From: Diacronema lutheri
Lineage: Eukaryota > Haptophyta > Pavlovophyceae > Pavlovales > Pavlovaceae
Direction: 5' to 3'
Length of the DNA stretch: 64,000 bases
Assembly: GCA_019448385.1 (NCBI GenBank)
Contig: JAGTXO010000009.1
Location: 930,001 to 994,000, forward strand
Positions 1-9,458 of this stretch are shown in pieces (the first letter of the stretch is position 1; each line of letters opens with the position of its first letter). Made by a program: the position numbers and the translations under genes. The notes beneath the pieces were generated by a model. It made no database searches and was not told the DNA's origin. It was given only the letters and a program-made list of their open reading frames with translations.

Positions 1-2
1 CC

Positions 3-3000
3 GCGCTCGACGACGCGCGCGGCATCGACCGGCACTGCCACGCCGTCCGGCAGCAGATCGAGGCGAAGCTCGCGTGGCGGCGCGCCGACGGCGCCGTCGG
101 CGTTGACGGCGCCGACGGCGCGCCCGCGCTCGCGCCTGCCGCCGCACCGCCGGCGTGCGCGCCGGCGCACGCTGCCGGCGAGGCGGCGGTCGACCAGGCG
201 ATCGTCACGCGGGTGCGCGACGCGCTGCGCGCGTGGGCGACGACTGGCACCGCGCCCAGCGCGGCGGTGCTCGACGACGCCTGCGCCGCGTACACGGCGC
301 GCGCACGCGCGCGCAAGGACGCGCGCACGGCGCTGGGCCCGACGCGCGCGGCCGAGCTGCTCGCCGCGGCCGCGCGCGGCGGAGCCGACGGGGCGGATGC
401 CGCGCGCGCGCTGCTCGGCGGCACGCCGCGCCTGCTCGTCGTGCTCCTCTGCGTGCCCGTCGCCGCGCCGTCCGGCGAGCCGCCGCGCCCGGTCGGGCTG
501 CTCGTCGCCGACCGGCCGACGGACGACTCGCGCCCGGCCGCGCTCGTGCGCTACGACTTTGCGCCGCTCGACGCGGACGTGGCCGTCGCGGTCGGCGCGC
601 ATGCCGTCGCGCTGGCCAGTGCGATCTGGCCGCTGCTCGCGGCCGAGGGGGAGCCGCGGCCATCGCCCGTCGTGCGCTCGCAGCCGCGCGGCGGCGACGA
701 TGGCGCGCGTGCGCTCGCAACGTTCGCGTGCCTCGACGCGCTGATGACCGCCAGCGTCGGCGCGCACGGCCTCGCGGGCGGCGCGGGCATGCTGCCCGCG
801 CTGGTCGCGCGAGGCGCCGCGGCCGCCCAGCGCGAGCGGCAGCTGCGCGCGGCCGCCGAGAGGCTGGGCGGCACGGTCGCTGGGTGGCCGGACACGGGCG
901 CGAGCGCGGCGGGCGCGAGCGTCGACGAGGAGGCGCGCACGTACGAGGTCGAGGCGGTCGTCGACGAGCGCCGCAAGGCGGGCAAGAAGGTGACGTTCCA
1001 GTTCCGGATCAGGTGGCGGGGCTACGACGAGAGCGCCGACACGTGGGAGCCTGAGGCCAACGTGAGCAGCGACCTCGTCGCCCAGTTCCGCAAGACGCGC
1101 GACGAGCAGAAGCGGCGCGCGGGCGTATCGGGCAGCGGCAGCGGCGGCGCGGGCGCGGCGTCGGCATTGGCGTCGGCGCCGCTTCGCGCGCACGGCGAGT
1201 CGGGCGCCGCGGGCAAGCGCGCCGCGGCGGGTGCCGCCGCGAGCGCGCGCGACGCCGCGGGCGCGCGCGCGCCGAGCGTTCTCCGCGCGCGCGGCGTCGA
1301 GCGCGCGCGCGTGGACGAGCCCGCTGCGCCGAGCGCGCGCGCCGCCGGCGGCGCGACGGCGCGCACGCGCGGCAGCGTGCTCCCGGGCTTCGTGGTCAAG
1401 CGCTCGACGCTCAACGCGGGGCCGCAGGCGGTGACGGCGCAGCCCGGTGCGCGGAAGGAGCTGCGGCGCATCGCGGCGGCCGTGCACAGGCTCACGACAC
1501 AGGCGTACCGCGTCATCAACAAGGTGGTGCGCGACGAGGCTGCGGTGGCGAGCGCGCAGGCCGTCGGCGCGGCGTCGGGCGGCCCGTCGACCAGCGTGCA
1601 CACGTCGACCACGATGGACAAGGGAACCGTCCGTGCGATCTTCTCGGCCATCGGCTGGCACAAGGACGAGAGCACGTACGGTGCAGCGCCCCGAGGCAAG
1701 CCCGCCGAGCAAGCCGCCGCGCAGACCAAGGCGGCGACGGCGCGCGCCGTCGGCGAGATGGCCGAGGGCGTCCAGCCCGTCTGCGCGGTGGGCCTCACGG
1801 AGATCCTCGAGGCGGAGGCGACGCAGGTGTCCACCGCGTGCCTGATGCATCCATCGCGCGTCGTGAACGGGCTGCTCCGCGACGTCGTCCGCGCGGCAGT
1901 CGAGCGCGACGAGGCGCTCGTCGCGCTGCCCGAGATGCAGCGAAACGCGCGCGTGCGCGAGCTGTGCGAGCGGCTGCTGCGCGGCGACGTGGAGGGCGCG
2001 CGCGTCGGCTGCCCCGCCGCGCTCGACCGCCACCTGCCCGACATGGTCCTCCACAAGATCGACTACAAGTGCACGCCCACGAAAAGGTGGAACTACGACC
2101 GGCACACGACGCGCTACTTCCTCGTGCAGATCCGCACCCTGCAGCACGTGGCCGAGGGGCAGGCGCTGCTCTGCCGGCTCGCGCACATCCACACGCAGCT
2201 GACCGGACGGCCGCCGCGGTACAATGTGGCGCCGCTGCGCACGCACAATGTGCGCGCGAGGCGTGGCTGCCGCTGCCGCCGCCGAGCGCCCAAGCGCGCG
2301 CGCCGCCGCCGTGCGCGCCGCCCCGCGGCCAGGTTGGTCACGCGCCCGCGCGCTCGCGCGCCGCGCGCTGCGCGCAGGTGCCGCGCAACGTGCGCCTCGC
2401 CGCGAGCGCCATCTGGGTGACGCTTTCGGATGACGAGCGCAAGGAGCTGCGCGCGCGGCTCAAGGCGCTGGACCTGCGCGACCACGATGGCGAGCCGATC
2501 AAGTGGACAGGCACAAACGGCAACACCCCGCCGATGTCGGACGTGCGCGTCAGGTACGCGGTCTTTGCGACGCGCTTCGACATCTCCAACCGCGTCTTCG
2601 ACTACGCCGGGCGCGAGCGGCCGCCGGCCGATCTGCCGTGGCACGCGCGGCGCTCGTGGGTTGGCCTCGCGCCGCTGCCGCGCGTGCCGCTCCCGGGCCG
2701 GCAGCCCGTCAAGTCGGTGGTGACAGATGGCGTCGCCGTGCACGCCGTCGGGACCGTCCTCGTGCCGAAGGCGCAGGCGCCGGCCGGCGGCTCGGGCGTC
2801 CTGCACCGCTGGCGCCGGCCGGACGGGCGCATCGCCGTCGCGCTCGGCTCCGAGCTGCGGCGGGCGATCGACGTCGAGGCGGCGGTCGTCGTCGCGGCCG
2901 ACCCGAACATGGGCAACATCACCACCTACTCTGCGCACGTCGGGCGGGCGGCCGTCTGGCGGCAGTTCACGCAGCGCGCGCGCGCGCGCGCCGCGGGCTT

Positions 3001-4102
3001 TGCGCGCGAGACGGCCAAGACCAACGCGGCGCGGCGGCGCGTGCGCAAGGACGGGCGCGGCGAGGAGTTCAGCGTGGAGGCGGACGAGGCGCGGCTTGGC
3101 GAGGCGCACAGCGCCAAGGTGCTCGGCGAGGGCGAGTTCCACGCCTTCCACCGCGAGAGCGCGCGGGTGCGCGAGCGCGCCGCCGAGCACGTGTACGACG
3201 CGCCGGCGCGCCGGAAGGAGCGCTGGCGGCGCGACAGCGGCGGGCGGTCCAACGCGGCGCGCGTCGCCGAGGCGCTCATCGCGGCGCACTGTGTCGACGG
3301 CGTGACGCGCGACCGGCTGCTCGTGTGCGTGGGCAAGTGGCTGCGCGACCACAAGGGCGCGCAGCCCAAGGGCGCGCCGCCCGCCTTCCAGGTGGGGCTG
3401 CTGCGCGAGCTGCGGCGGCGCGGCGTCGCGGCCGTCTTCGTGCCCGAGCCGTACACGTCGATGCACTGCTCGATGCCGCGGCTCGCCAAGGGCGGCAGGC
3501 TGCAGCGCTGCGGCGCGGAGCTCGCGCAGAACCCGCGCCTGCCCGTGGCAAAGGGCGGCACGCGCACGGTGCACGCGCTCGTCATCTGCCCGGCGTGCAA
3601 CGGCGGCAAGAAGCCCGTGCACCGCGACTACAACGCCGCGCGCAACATCTTCTACGACGTGCACGACATGGCGGCGCACGCGGCCGGGCGCGACACCACG
3701 TCGACGCCTGAGCGCTTTGCCCTCGTGCTCGCCTGGTGGGCGCGCGGCGAGGTGTGGGAGCGTGAGGAGCGCATGGTGCACGGCGAGGGCGACGACTGCG
3801 ACGACGAGTGCGACGGCGACGACGAGGGCGACGACGAGGGCGACGACGACGACGACGACGATGGCAGCGGCGACGGCGGCGGCGGCGAGGGCGACGGCGA
3901 CGGCGACGGCGACGGAGGCGGCGGCGGCGACGACGACGATGACGGCGGGGGAGGCGGCGGCGGCGACGGCGGTGGCGACGACGGCGGCGGGCGCGGCGGC
4001 GGTGGCGGCGGCGGCTCTCGCGCCCGCACCCCCGCCCGCGGAGCTGCCAGCGCCAGTGCCGGCGGCGGCAGCGCGCGCGGGCCGAAGCGCGGCCGGCGTT
4101 GA
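3..4102 (+). CDS. Chromodomain-Fanzor fusion, RNA-guided nuclease, 5'-partial
   Basis: Fanzors are eukaryotic TnpB relatives that cut DNA using a guide RNA made beside the gene. The frame is open from base 3, so the gene begins upstream. Two exons (3-2249, 2378-4102) join across a 128-bp GT-AG phase-0 intron, rebuilding the conserved Fanzor block YNVAPLRTHN/VPRNVRL. Numbering from the first codon here (1,323 aa): chromodomain at about 312-366 (TYEVE, IRWRGY, DTWEP); RuvC-I Asp924 in ADPNMGN; RuvC-II Glu1106 in VPEPYTSMHC; RuvC-III Asp1166 in HRDYNAARNI; likely zinc ribbon from Cys1113, 1127, 1153 and 1156, with Pro1116 where the first CxxC usually has its second Cys. An Asp/Gly tail (about 1218-1297) precedes a basic end, possibly nuclear-localising. 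The intron uses the local GTGCG donor, so the gene looks adapted to this host. The nuclease call is strong; activity and chromatin targeting are inferred. Confidence 0.88.
936..1100 (+). other. Chromodomain inside the Fanzor gene
   Basis: This stretch encodes a canonical chromodomain: a TYEVE opening strand, a K/R-rich turn, FRIRWRGY, DTWEP, and a C-terminal helix ending near QFRK. Chromodomains bind methylated lysine on histone H3. Aromatic-cage candidates are the Tyr of TYEVE, the Trp of IRWRGY and an aromatic nearby. It lies about 560 residues before the RuvC-I Asp in the same uninterrupted frame, so it belongs to the same protein. The role in steering the nuclease or transposon to marked chromatin is inferred from chromoviruses, where integrase chromodomains do this. 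Confidence 0.85.
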
Positions 4103-4521
4103 CGCACGGCCGAGCCGCGCAGCGGTCGACGCTTTGCGGGCTCTGCCCAGGTCGCGCGCGGCTGGCGACGCGTGCCGCGCGCGGCACGACCGTGCACGCC
4201 GCCACCCGTGGCCGAGCGCGCCGCACCAGCCGGCCCGCTCCAACCGCCGTGCGGATCACGGACGCTCGCTACGGCTCGTCGGCGCGCGTCACCTGCGCCG
4301 GCGGCCACGGCGCCGTCTGCTCCGGCCTCGTCGCGAGCAGCCCGACCGCTGCTCGCCGCCCGCACGCCGCCGCAGCAACGCTGCGCGTCGTGCTCCCCCG
4401 CTCGCCAAACGCGAAGAGCTCCCTCTCAAGGACGTCCTTCCGAACGGCCCGCGCTGCACTCGGGGCGCGATCGTGCCCCTGATCGGATTTGGCTTGACCA
4501 TCTATACACGTCGCGATATAA
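4103..4521 (+). other. Non-coding 3' flank of the Fanzor gene
   Basis: GC-rich stretch with no convincing reading frame between the Fanzor stop and the first inverted-repeat element. In known TnpB and Fanzor loci the guide RNA is made from the 3' end of the gene through the transposon right end, so this region is the expected place for such an RNA. No sequence proof of one is visible. The 17-bp stretch at 4508-4524 recurs at 4735-4751 inside the neighbouring short element. Confidence 0.4.
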
Positions 4522-4715
4522 TACTAACGTGGGTGTCCGCCCATGACGCGTCCTGCCACGTCCTTGCCGTCCCGGCCGTTCCCGCTGCCGGCGTGCACAG
4601 GGTCGACGCCCTGATTTCGGCCTGATGTTGCGTGCGCCCTTTCGCTCGCTCCGTTTGTCCAGCCTCGGCCCCGTGCGCGCCCCTCCTGCTGACCCGCCTG
4701 TAAGCGTCGTTAGTA
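4522..4715 (+). mobile_element. Short inverted-repeat element or right end of the Fanzor transposon
   Basis: Bounded by TACTAACG (4522-4529) and CGTTAGTA (4708-4715), an exact 8-bp inverted repeat, and flanked on both sides by TATAA (4517-4521 and 4716-4720), which looks like a target duplication. Its last 132 bp (4584-4715) are identical, inverted, to 47770-47901, so at least that part is a recently mobile sequence. It has no coding capacity. Because it lies 3' of a Fanzor gene it may be the transposon right end carrying guide-RNA sequence. It could equally be an unrelated non-autonomous element. Confidence 0.6.
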
Positions 4716-4876: not shown

Positions 4877-5905
4877 ATGGCCCCCTTGGTTGAAGACTGG
4901 GTAAGAATGCGGGTGAGCGCCGCGAGCCTGGCCACCTCGCGCTTCAGCGCGGAGCAGGCCGTGCGATTCCTCTCGGCCGAGCTTCCCGTGCGGGCGGACC
5001 GCCTCGTGCGCGCGCTTGAGCCAGAGGCGCCGCACTTCGCCGCGTTGCCGTCGTTCGGCGCGCTGCTCGACTCGCTCACGCGCGCCGCGAGCGCGTGTGG
5101 CCTTCGCGACGCCGCCGGCGTGGCGCAGGGCGCGCGAGCGCTGCGCGAGGGCCACGCCGCGCTCGAGACGGGCGTGCGCGCGCTTGTGCCAGAGCTCCGC
5201 GCGCTTGCGCTCGAGCCGCGTGGCTGTGCCTCGGCGATCGCCGCCGTCGAGCGCGTCGCAGTGGGCGTTCACCGCCACCTGATCGCGCAGCGAATGCTCG
5301 TTGCGCACCTCGACGCGTCGTGCGAGCCAAGTGCGCTGGCCGAGCCGCTGTGCGTGCGCGCGTGTGATCTCGGTACGCTGTGCGCGGCCACCGCCGACGA
5401 CGCCGTCCTCTTCTGCCGCGAGAAGCACGGCGACGCGCCCGAGGTGTGCTTCGCGCCGCCAGCTTACGTGCACTTCAGCCTGATGGAGGTGCTGAAAAAC
5501 GCGCTTGGTGCGCACGTGCGACGGTACGGCGTGCTCGGCTTGTGCGACGCGCCGCCGGTCGAGCTCGCGCTCGCCGCGTCCGCGGGCAACGCCGCGACGA
5601 TGCGCGTAACGGACCGCGGCGGCGGCATGGATTTTGAGGCGCGGCTCGCGGCCGCGCGCTTCTTTTCCTCGACGAGCGAGGAGCGCGCGCCGAGCTACAC
5701 GTATTCGCGCGCGTTTGGCTCGCAGTATGACGGCCTCGGCGTCGGCCTGCCGCTCGCCGCCGCGCACCTGCGCTTCTTGGGGGGCGATCTCGCGATTGGC
5801 ACGTTTGGCGACGGGTGCACGGCATTTCTCTCGATCGACCGGACGGGCGGGGCGCGCACTGATCCAGCGGATGATGAGGAGCACGCGCGATGTAGCTGCG
5901 GGTAG
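4877..5905 (+). CDS. PDK/BCKDK-family mitochondrial protein kinase
   Basis: Single-exon, 342-aa kinase of the pyruvate dehydrogenase kinase/branched-chain ketoacid dehydrogenase kinase family. These enzymes phosphorylate and switch off the mitochondrial dehydrogenase complexes. The GHKL ATP-binding boxes are in order: N-box HFSLMEVLKNALGAHVRRYG (about 199-218), G1 box RVTDRGGGMD (about 243-252), and G2 box GLGVGLPLAAAH (about 287-298) followed by GGDL. The N-terminal half is helical, as in the family. Length is slightly short (animal members are about 400 aa) and no clear transit peptide is visible. The start at 4877 is the first ATG giving this frame; it lies 25 bp after an inserted MITE. 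It is convergent with the next gene (73-bp gap). The exact substrate, PDH or BCKDH, cannot be told from the sequence. Confidence 0.85.
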   Translation: MAPLVEDWVRMRVSAASLATSRFSAEQAVRFLSAELPVRADRLVRALEPEAPHFAALPSFGALLDSLTRAASACGLRDAAGVAQGARALREGHAALETGVRALVPELRALALEPRGCASAIAAVERVAVGVHRHLIAQRMLVAHLDASCEPSALAEPLCVRACDLGTLCAATADDAVLFCREKHGDAPEVCFAPPAYVHFSLMEVLKNALGAHVRRYGVLGLCDAPPVELALAASAGNAATMRVTDRGGGMDFEARLAAARFFSSTSEERAPSYTYSRAFGSQYDGLGVGLPLAAAHLRFLGGDLAIGTFGDGCTAFLSIDRTGGARTDPADDEEHARCSCG

Positions 5906-7692: not shown

Positions 7693-9081
7693 ATGTCGGC
7701 CGACAGCTGGTGCACGATCGAGTCCGACCCGGGGGTGTTCACTGAGCTGATCCAGGAGATGGGCGTACAGGGCGTGCAGGTCGAAGAGCTCTACTCCCTC
7801 GACAAGGAATCGATGGACCAGTGCGCGCCGCCACGGGCGCCGCGCCGCGCGGCACGCGGCGTGCGGGCGCGCGCGCGCGCGCCGGCCGCTCACGCACTTG
7901 GCGCGCGCGCGCCGGCGCAGGCTCTCGCCCGTCTACGGCCTCATCTTCCTTTTCAAATGGCGTGCGAACGAGCAGGACGAGCGCCCCGTCGACACGGACC
8001 CATCGCACGACGTCTTCTTCGCCTCGCAGGTCATCAACAATGCGTGCGCCACGCAGGCGATCCTCTCGATCCTCCTCAACGCGCCCGGCGTGTCGCTCGG
8101 CGCCGAGCTGACCAACTTCAAGCTGTTCACCAAGGAATTCCCGCCAAACCTGAAGGGGCTCGCGATCAGCAACAGCGACCTCGTGCGCAAGGCGCACAAC
8201 AGCTTCGCCCGGTGCGGCGGCGCGGGCGCGCGCCCCGCGCGCCCTCGATCGTCGCGCCTCGTGGCGCGCCGAACGGCACGCGTGGGCACGCCCGACCGAC
8301 GCCACCGCGCGCCACGCCGCGCGCGGCCGCCTGGCCGCGCGCGTCCGCCGCCGCACGCCGGCTGACGCACGCGCGCGCGCGCACGCGGCGCGGCTGCCAA
8401 CCGCCGGCGCGCAGCGCGGAGCCGTTCATCCTCGAGGGGCGCGGTGCGGAGAATGACGACGAGCTGTACCACTTCATCTCGTACATACCGATCAACGGCA
8501 AGCTGTACGAGCTCGATGGCCTCAAGTCCGGCCCGATCTGCCTCGGCGAGTGCCCGCCGGACGATTGGCTCGCCGCGGCGCGCCCGGAGATCCAAAGGCG
8601 GATCGACCAGTATTCTGCCAAGGAGATCAGGTTCAACTTGATGGCGATCATCCGGAACCGCGCCGAGATCTTCTCGGAGGAGCAGGCGCGGTACGAGCGC
8701 GAGCGCGACCGCACGATCGGCCTCGTCCAATCGCGCGGCGCCTCCATCCCGACCAATGACGAGCTCGAGGCGATGCTCGACCGCGCGCGCACGCTCGGCG
8801 CCGACGCGCACATCGCGCCGGTCGAGGCGGGGATGGAGTCGAGCGTGACGGTGGACGAGCTCTTCCTACTGCTTGCCACGCTCAACGAGCAGCTCGCCAC
8901 CGTCCGCGCCAAACTGCGCCTCGAGGAGGACAAGTTTGCGCAGTGGCGGACGGAGAACGTGCGCAGGCGGCACAATTACGTCCCGTTCATTTTGAACTTC
9001 ATCAAGCTGCTCGCGAGCAAGGGCGAGCTCATGCCGCTCGTGAACAAGGCCAAGCAAAAGCCGCCGCGCGCCGCGCAGTGA
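7693..9081 (+). CDS. UCHL5: Ubiquitin C-terminal hydrolase UCHL5/UCH37
   Basis: Cysteine deubiquitinase that in animals works on the 19S proteasome (through RPN13) and with INO80. Exons 7693-7820, 7921-8211 and 8415-9081 give 361 aa; the introns are 100 and 203 bp with GTGCG donors. The catalytic set is complete: Gln79, Cys85 ([10 protein letters not shown]), His159 (ELYHFISY) and Asp174 (YELDGL). The spacing equals human Q82/C88/H164/D179. The C-terminal ULD-type helical domain ends with [12 protein letters not shown] and [10 protein letters not shown], as in UCH37 rather than the short UCHL1/3 forms. The start is set by [15 protein letters not shown]. It shares a 27-bp intergenic space with RBM17. 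Confidence 0.95.
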
Positions 9082-9458
9082 CGCGGCGCGGGCGACCGGC
9101 GCGCGGCCGCGGGCCATCGCTCCCGTTGCTACTCCAGTGTCCATCACAGTCCGGTGCGGAGCGAGGCGTAGGTTACAGGCTTCGTTTGGGCCGTCGCCCG
9201 TCAGGCAACACGCCTCATCAGGCGCGTGCGAACGCCGCGGCCATCGCTCGGGCCGATTTCCCGGCCGTGGCACAACGTCGACAGATCCGCGCAGCCGGCG
9301 CCCGCGTGCGCCGAAACTCCGCGATCGAACGCGCCCACGCGCGTGCCCGATCGAAGCTCGCCAGAATGTCCAGGCCACACTGCGCGCCCCCGTGACCAGG
9401 CGGCAGGCCGGCCGCCTGTGCCGCCCGACAGCCGATGGCTCGGCAGGCGGCGGCACGC
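9082..9458. other. Intergenic, convergent 3' region
   Basis: 377 bp between the UCHL5 stop and the RPL24 stop. It will hold both 3' UTRs. No repeat, RNA gene or plausible reading frame was recognised. Confidence 0.5.

Follow-up and report, generated by a model that had tools for sequence, protein, structure and literature searches.

Does a transposon of the haptophyte alga Diacronema lutheri join an RNA-guided nuclease to a reader of histone marks, and what would it gain by doing so? Fanzors are eukaryotic RNA-guided nucleases and, to our knowledge, how they act within chromatin is an open question. The locus that brings it up here lies at the start of a 64,000-nt stretch of the D. lutheri genome (the window; contig C36, 930001-994000), in which a gene carrying both a chromodomain and a Fanzor-type nuclease lies near the 3' end of a 31-kb transposon. 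Positions are numbered within the window, negative ones lying upstream of its start. The gene and the part of the element inside the window are laid out as follows:

1 to 4507, plus strand: part of the element inside the window; the whole element is 31,003 bp, from -26495 to 4507, with the 3' terminus ...TTGACCATCTATAC
3 to 2249, plus strand: 3' part of the first long exon, in a frame open from about -11067, beyond the window
942 to 1094, plus strand: chromodomain (PF00385), residues 314-364 of the frame beginning at 3
1095 to 1382, plus strand: low-complexity linker without an in-frame ATG
1383 to 2249, plus strand: probable N-terminal (WED/REC) part of the nuclease, as we infer it, with no relative found
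2250 to 2377, plus strand: GT-AG intron of 128 bp
2378 to 4102, plus strand: second exon, nuclease core and then an acidic, glycine-rich tail
2723 to 2731, plus strand: TDG motif, known from the WED domain of Fanzor1
2900 to 2902, plus strand: putative RuvC-I aspartate, context ADPNMG
3446 to 3448, plus strand: RuvC-II glutamate, context PEPYTS
3467 to 3598, plus strand: C4 zinc ribbon, with cysteine codons at 3467, 3509, 3587 and 3596
3626 to 3628, plus strand: RuvC-III aspartate, context RDYNAARNI
4103 to 4507, plus strand: non-coding 3' end of the element, the expected place of a guide RNA, in which none was recognised

An earlier reading of this DNA, made from the letters only (the sequence-only reading), had placed a canonical chromodomain at 936-1100. 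In agreement with that claim, a Pfam search of frame 3 of the window found PF00385 at 942-1094 with 48.5 bits (cutoff 25.1; E-value 8.2e-13). When the domain was compared with PDB sequences, 48 distinct matches were obtained at E<=0.001, with CDY/CDYL and HP1 chromodomains at the top, and the aromatic positions (the Y of TYEVE and the W and Y of RWRGY), which are present in the window copy, align with those of CDY/CDYL. We take these three residues to be the aromatic cage of the chromodomain. Judged by its sequence the domain is of the HP1 type, and it probably binds histones.

The nuclease was recognised by its motifs and by comparison with profiles. The three RuvC acids that had been named, at 2900, 3446 and 3626, are exact in position, and the RDxNAARNI signature and zinc ribbon described with them are present as RDYNAARNI and the ribbon cysteines; in the window copy the D-E-D triad and all four cysteines are intact, the RuvC-I aspartate being assigned by its motif only. 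In the frame that follows the intron, PF07282 scored 28.4 bits in Pfam (cutoff 26.3), so that the hidden Markov model search against protein families that had been proposed as a check returned both PF00385 and PF07282 above their cutoffs. Four of the five members of our alignment match PF07282 at E<=1, P0002 falling under the cutoff. Moreover, the spliced protein matches the Fanzor/TnpB motif of Bao and Jurka, D-X(125,275)-[TS][TS]-XX-C4-X(5,50)-RD (PMC3627910), with 184 residues from D to TS and 8 from the last cysteine to RD; the related proteins P0001, P0002 and P0004 match as well, whereas P0003 does not, nor does P0005, whose sequence is cut off ahead of the motif. Against a profile of 81 TnpB-like open reading frames, motif-filtered out of 120 viral loci, hhalign gave a P-value of 1.9e-5 and a probability of 77.7%, with RuvC-II, the ribbon and RuvC-III aligned in order, and 20 column-shuffled controls gave probabilities <=0.35%. 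The same profile used with hmmsearch recovered exon 2 and P0001 and none of 200 shuffles, and missed P0002, P0004 and P0005. The NCBIfam guided_TnpB model scored 14 bits, far under its cutoff of 100, and scans of viral and genome contig collections returned no relative of the nuclease. We lean slightly towards an active RNA-guided nuclease.

The sequence-only reading had also put the two domains in one gene, and they do share one coding frame. Splicing of 2249 to 2378 preserves the frame through to the stop at 4102, and the 4,439 codons between -11067 and 2249 contain 0 stops, as compared with a mean of 40.7 and a minimum of 26 in 200 mononucleotide shuffles. Because the frame is open from about -11067, positions 3-4102 are merely the 3' end of the gene; the earlier placement of the gene at 3-4102 therefore keeps its end and loses its start. 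The distribution of GC (guanine plus cytosine) by codon position is coding-like over a YqaJ-type nuclease match farther upstream in the frame, the chromodomain, the linker and the part that follows the linker; within the first 5 kb of the open frame the pattern is faint in places. P0002, P0004 and P0005, which are 45, 50 and 43% identical to P0001, start with MPR or VPR, that is, with the residue at the splice acceptor. (Since the DNA and organisms of these relatives were not seen, such starts may partly be the gene caller's choice.) P0003, which is the D. lutheri protein KFE25_006464, joins RTHN to VPRN at the same junction; the D. lutheri annotation was made by BRAKER2 with RNA-seq (PMC8379373), although this particular junction may be no more than a prediction. 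The join in frame, the relatives that begin at the acceptor residue and the junction of P0003 uphold the earlier claim of a host-type intron. These findings make it very probable that the chromodomain and the nuclease are fused as one coding unit, whose predicted product is either a protein by itself or the C-terminal part of a larger polyprotein. In P0003, a chromodomain-Fanzor piece (the end of exon 1 and the start of exon 2) stands ahead of SAM-domain repeats. Among 8000 candidates scored for relatives of the chromodomain exon, P0003 was the only match, and it covered the later part of that exon.

The gene belongs to an element that is present in many copies. Its 5' terminus, TATATA[CG]GGCGCGG, places the start of the window copy at -26495, and exact termini occur 193 times (3') and 179 times (5') in the genome searched (43,492,796 bases in 103 contigs), with 0 for the reversed controls. 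Nineteen copies share 97.6-99.9% identity with the window copy (by aligned piece), which argues that the element spread recently; 17 of them end at window 4505-4508 and the other two (L021 and L024) are cut short at contig ends. Flanks past the 3' end, available for 12 of the 17, all differ. The exact termini and near-identical copies bear out the earlier suggestion of a mobile element: in D. lutheri the transposon has been active recently and numbers about 200 copies. The haptophyte origin assumed in the sequence-only reading is borne out as well. When the first 100 ends listed for each terminus were paired, 59 pairs resulted, of which 27 measure 30.5-32.5 kb, 8 measure 29.1-29.4 kb, 8 measure 26.0-26.9 kb, 13 measure 21.4-21.6 kb and 3 are of other sizes. 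Since the sizes are discrete (about 31.0, 29.2, 26.3 and 21.5 kb), the shorter forms, too, seem to have spread. The 59 paired copies account for 3.7% of the assembly; if their mean size held for all 193 copies, the share would be about 12%, a figure that is an extrapolation because 41 of the listed 3' ends are unpaired. Note that several contigs begin or end at element ends, so that the assembly breaks there and the counts may be off. For the NIVA-4/92 strain, an assembly of 43,502,671 bp in 103 contigs with 73.25% GC has been described, with repeats at 22.9% of the genome and the annotated ones mostly long terminal repeat (LTR) elements; the main text of that paper holds no word starting with "transpos" or "retro" (PMC8379373).

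The pairing of the two domains recurs across these copies. With at most one mismatch, genome-wide matches number 214 for the chromodomain, 235 for REC and 230 for RuvC-III. When exact 30-mer places among the matches listed were counted on contigs 1-40, RuvC-III was found 2597-2622 bp downstream of the chromodomain on the same strand in 74 of 79 exact chromodomain places, and in 55 places the spacing was exactly 2618 bp. Most element copies end in a chromodomain-nuclease gene.

Three further coding regions were recognised in the element:

-23130 to -20726: PIF1-type helicase in two overlapping frames (PF05970, PF21530)
-19574 to -18132: UCH-type ubiquitin hydrolase
about -2730 to -2323: YqaJ-type nuclease match, in the same frame as the chromodomain

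Scanned as a piece by itself, the YqaJ match scored 22.6 bits (cutoff 22); inside a longer piece its score was 18.3 bits and thus under the cutoff. Among the element's open reading frames scanned with Pfam, none matched a transposase, an integrase, a reverse transcriptase or an HUH Rep, although a spliced or diverged Rep could escape such a scan; an open reading frame of 1,345 aa gave zero Pfam matches. By eye, and going by their motif, L029:1254-1829 and 8542-9246 resemble Ulp1-type cysteine proteases, with no Pfam match.

Like the Fanzor1 proteins SpuFz1, GtFz1 and PpFz1, the nuclease has the RuvC D-E-D, the C4 ribbon and TDG, and it is transposon-borne, its gene lying near the 3' end of the element. 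It differs from them in that a chromodomain and linker precede the nuclease within a frame of thousands of codons, in having DPN in place of DPG and in the 31-kb size of its element. PpFz1 carries an extra domain too, but that domain is FRI, which binds cyclophilin, rather than a chromodomain (PMC11423790). The Chlamydomonas Helitrons CRe-1, 2 and 3, which carry spliced Fanzor1, provide a second comparison (PIF1-type helicase belongs to Helitrons; PMC3627910): here, too, an algal transposon has a spliced Fanzor and a PIF1-type helicase. Unlike in Helitrons, HUH Rep was not found in the frames scanned, the ends differ and the terminal inverted match was equalled by 90 of 500 shuffles, that is, it is at chance level. 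Chromoviruses (chromodomain LTR retrotransposons) are likewise mobile elements with a chromodomain, whereas in this element the chromodomain precedes a RuvC nuclease and neither reverse transcriptase nor integrase was recognised in the same scan. We did not find a chromodomain-Fanzor in literature on Fanzor, TnpB fusions, Helitrons, haptophytes or D. lutheri, in which subscription journals and bioRxiv are thinly covered, and one may be described there.

Fanzors cut DNA with guide RNAs from transposon ends (PMC10432273). Within 4103-4507, folding gave a z of about -1 and there were zero Rfam matches, so that no guide RNA was recognised in that interval. The explanation that we consider best, and hold tentatively at somewhat under an even chance, is an HP1-type chromodomain joined to a Fanzor1-type RuvC nuclease with histone-tethered guided cutting. 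The nuclease would take its guide RNA from the 3' end of the element, like other Fanzors; the chromodomain would bind methylated histone tails and hold the nuclease in silent, transposon-rich chromatin. There the nuclease would cut element-free sites, repair would copy the element back and copy number would be kept high by this copying, with the helicase serving a step of transposition. That coupling of chromodomain and nuclease is the function of the fusion ranges, in our judgement, from doubtful to tentative. A wider picture, which we regard as unlikely, has histone marks steering the search of an RNA-guided nuclease while the ubiquitin hydrolase and possible SUMO-type proteases loosen chromatin, the 31-kb transposon thereby coming to occupy perhaps one tenth of a small algal genome.

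Several observations weigh against histone-tethered cutting by a Fanzor. RuvC-I reads DPN in the window copy, whereas DPG is typical of Fanzor (PMC10711439, which also describes TDG in the Fanzor1 WED domain); among the relatives, P0002 and P0005 have DPG and P0004 has DTG, and TDG recurs in P0005, with SDG and VDR as the corresponding residues in P0004 and P0002. PDB sequence searches listed no Fanzor and returned Cas12f1 at E 0.2, 0.014 and 0.35, and the chromodomain exon had no relative in other species among the 8000 candidates. On contigs 1-40, 24 of 98 RuvC-III places have no exact chromodomain 30-mer in range; 3 of these do hold a chromodomain, changed or in an inverted segment, 11 have the REC 30-mer at 2132-2140 bp and, by eye, zero matches to a degenerate chromodomain pattern, and the other 10 have, by eye, neither the REC 30-mer nor such a match. 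The same contigs hold seven members of the 29.1-29.4-kb class, of which five lack the exact chromodomain 30-mer and two have it. A minority of copies thus have the chromodomain motif changed or missing. Finally, 55 of 72 variants shared among 20 copies are nonsynonymous, a share close to, or a little over, the 70-72% or so expected under neutrality; the copies have had too little time to show purifying selection, so this comparison gives no verdict.

We considered whether the chromodomain instead picks insertion sites in marked chromatin, in the manner of a chromovirus integrase and by way of a polyprotein or complex, the Fanzor merely sharing its frame. The YqaJ-type nuclease in that frame and the high, recent copy number are in keeping with this account, as is the occurrence of chromodomains as accessory domains in LTR-transposon polyproteins (PMC6338049), but the frames scanned yielded neither a recognisable integrase nor a transposase, and the chromodomain sits immediately before the nuclease and a long way from the helicase. 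We judge this account improbable.

It is also conceivable that no fused protein is made, the 2249/2378 junction being a frameshift or artefact or the chromodomain and nuclease having separate transcripts. In favour of this, P0001 begins inside exon 2 and the open upstream frames occur in GC-rich DNA. A frameshift in place of the intron is less likely, because three relatives start at the acceptor, P0003 has the same junction and the intron has a 2-bp insertion in two copies. Indels of at least three bases in the frame, by comparison, number six, all multiples of three (the frame also has one 2-bp deletion), and zero in-frame ATGs lie between the chromodomain and 1614. Taken together, these points render the absence of a fusion very unlikely. 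Equally unlikely is an account in which the nuclease has decayed or rides along without cutting and the chromodomain was picked up by chance and has no function, for although DPN, the missing selection signal, the 1-bp indels of several copies (mostly those at contig ends) and the copies that lack the chromodomain motif would suit it, the acids and cysteines are intact in the window copy, P0001, P0002 and P0004 match the Fanzor/TnpB motif and the 4,439-codon frame is open.

With a natural histone-reader fusion carried by a young transposon that is present in many copies, in an alga kept in culture, the question of Fanzor action in chromatin becomes testable, and the fusion offers a natural design for chromatin-aware editors. 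The element may further be relevant to the way in which a compact genome is filled by a giant transposon.

As to insertion, 8 of the 10 pairs compared showed no target-site duplication beyond the ends and the other two showed 1 and 3 bp; TATA at both ends could mask one. An empty-site test gave no information, the flank being the end of a small repeat. An abundant small repeat (window 4529-4707) starts about 21 bp past the 3' end of the element, and most of its 40 best places are identical across 179 bases. In one copy (L022; contig C9, 422000-431900) the stretch from -1813 to 2401 has the opposite orientation to the remainder. The element contains a near-perfect palindrome (L032:1503-2373, window about -24497 to -23627), with arms of 378 nt that are 98% complementary and spaced by 115 nt, in a lower-GC stretch. 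A 48-bp tandem array lies upstream of the element (L034, window about -33987 to -33345), and an open reading frame next to the element's other end, at 4877-5905, has a weak match to HATPase_c (20.1 bits; cutoff 26.4).

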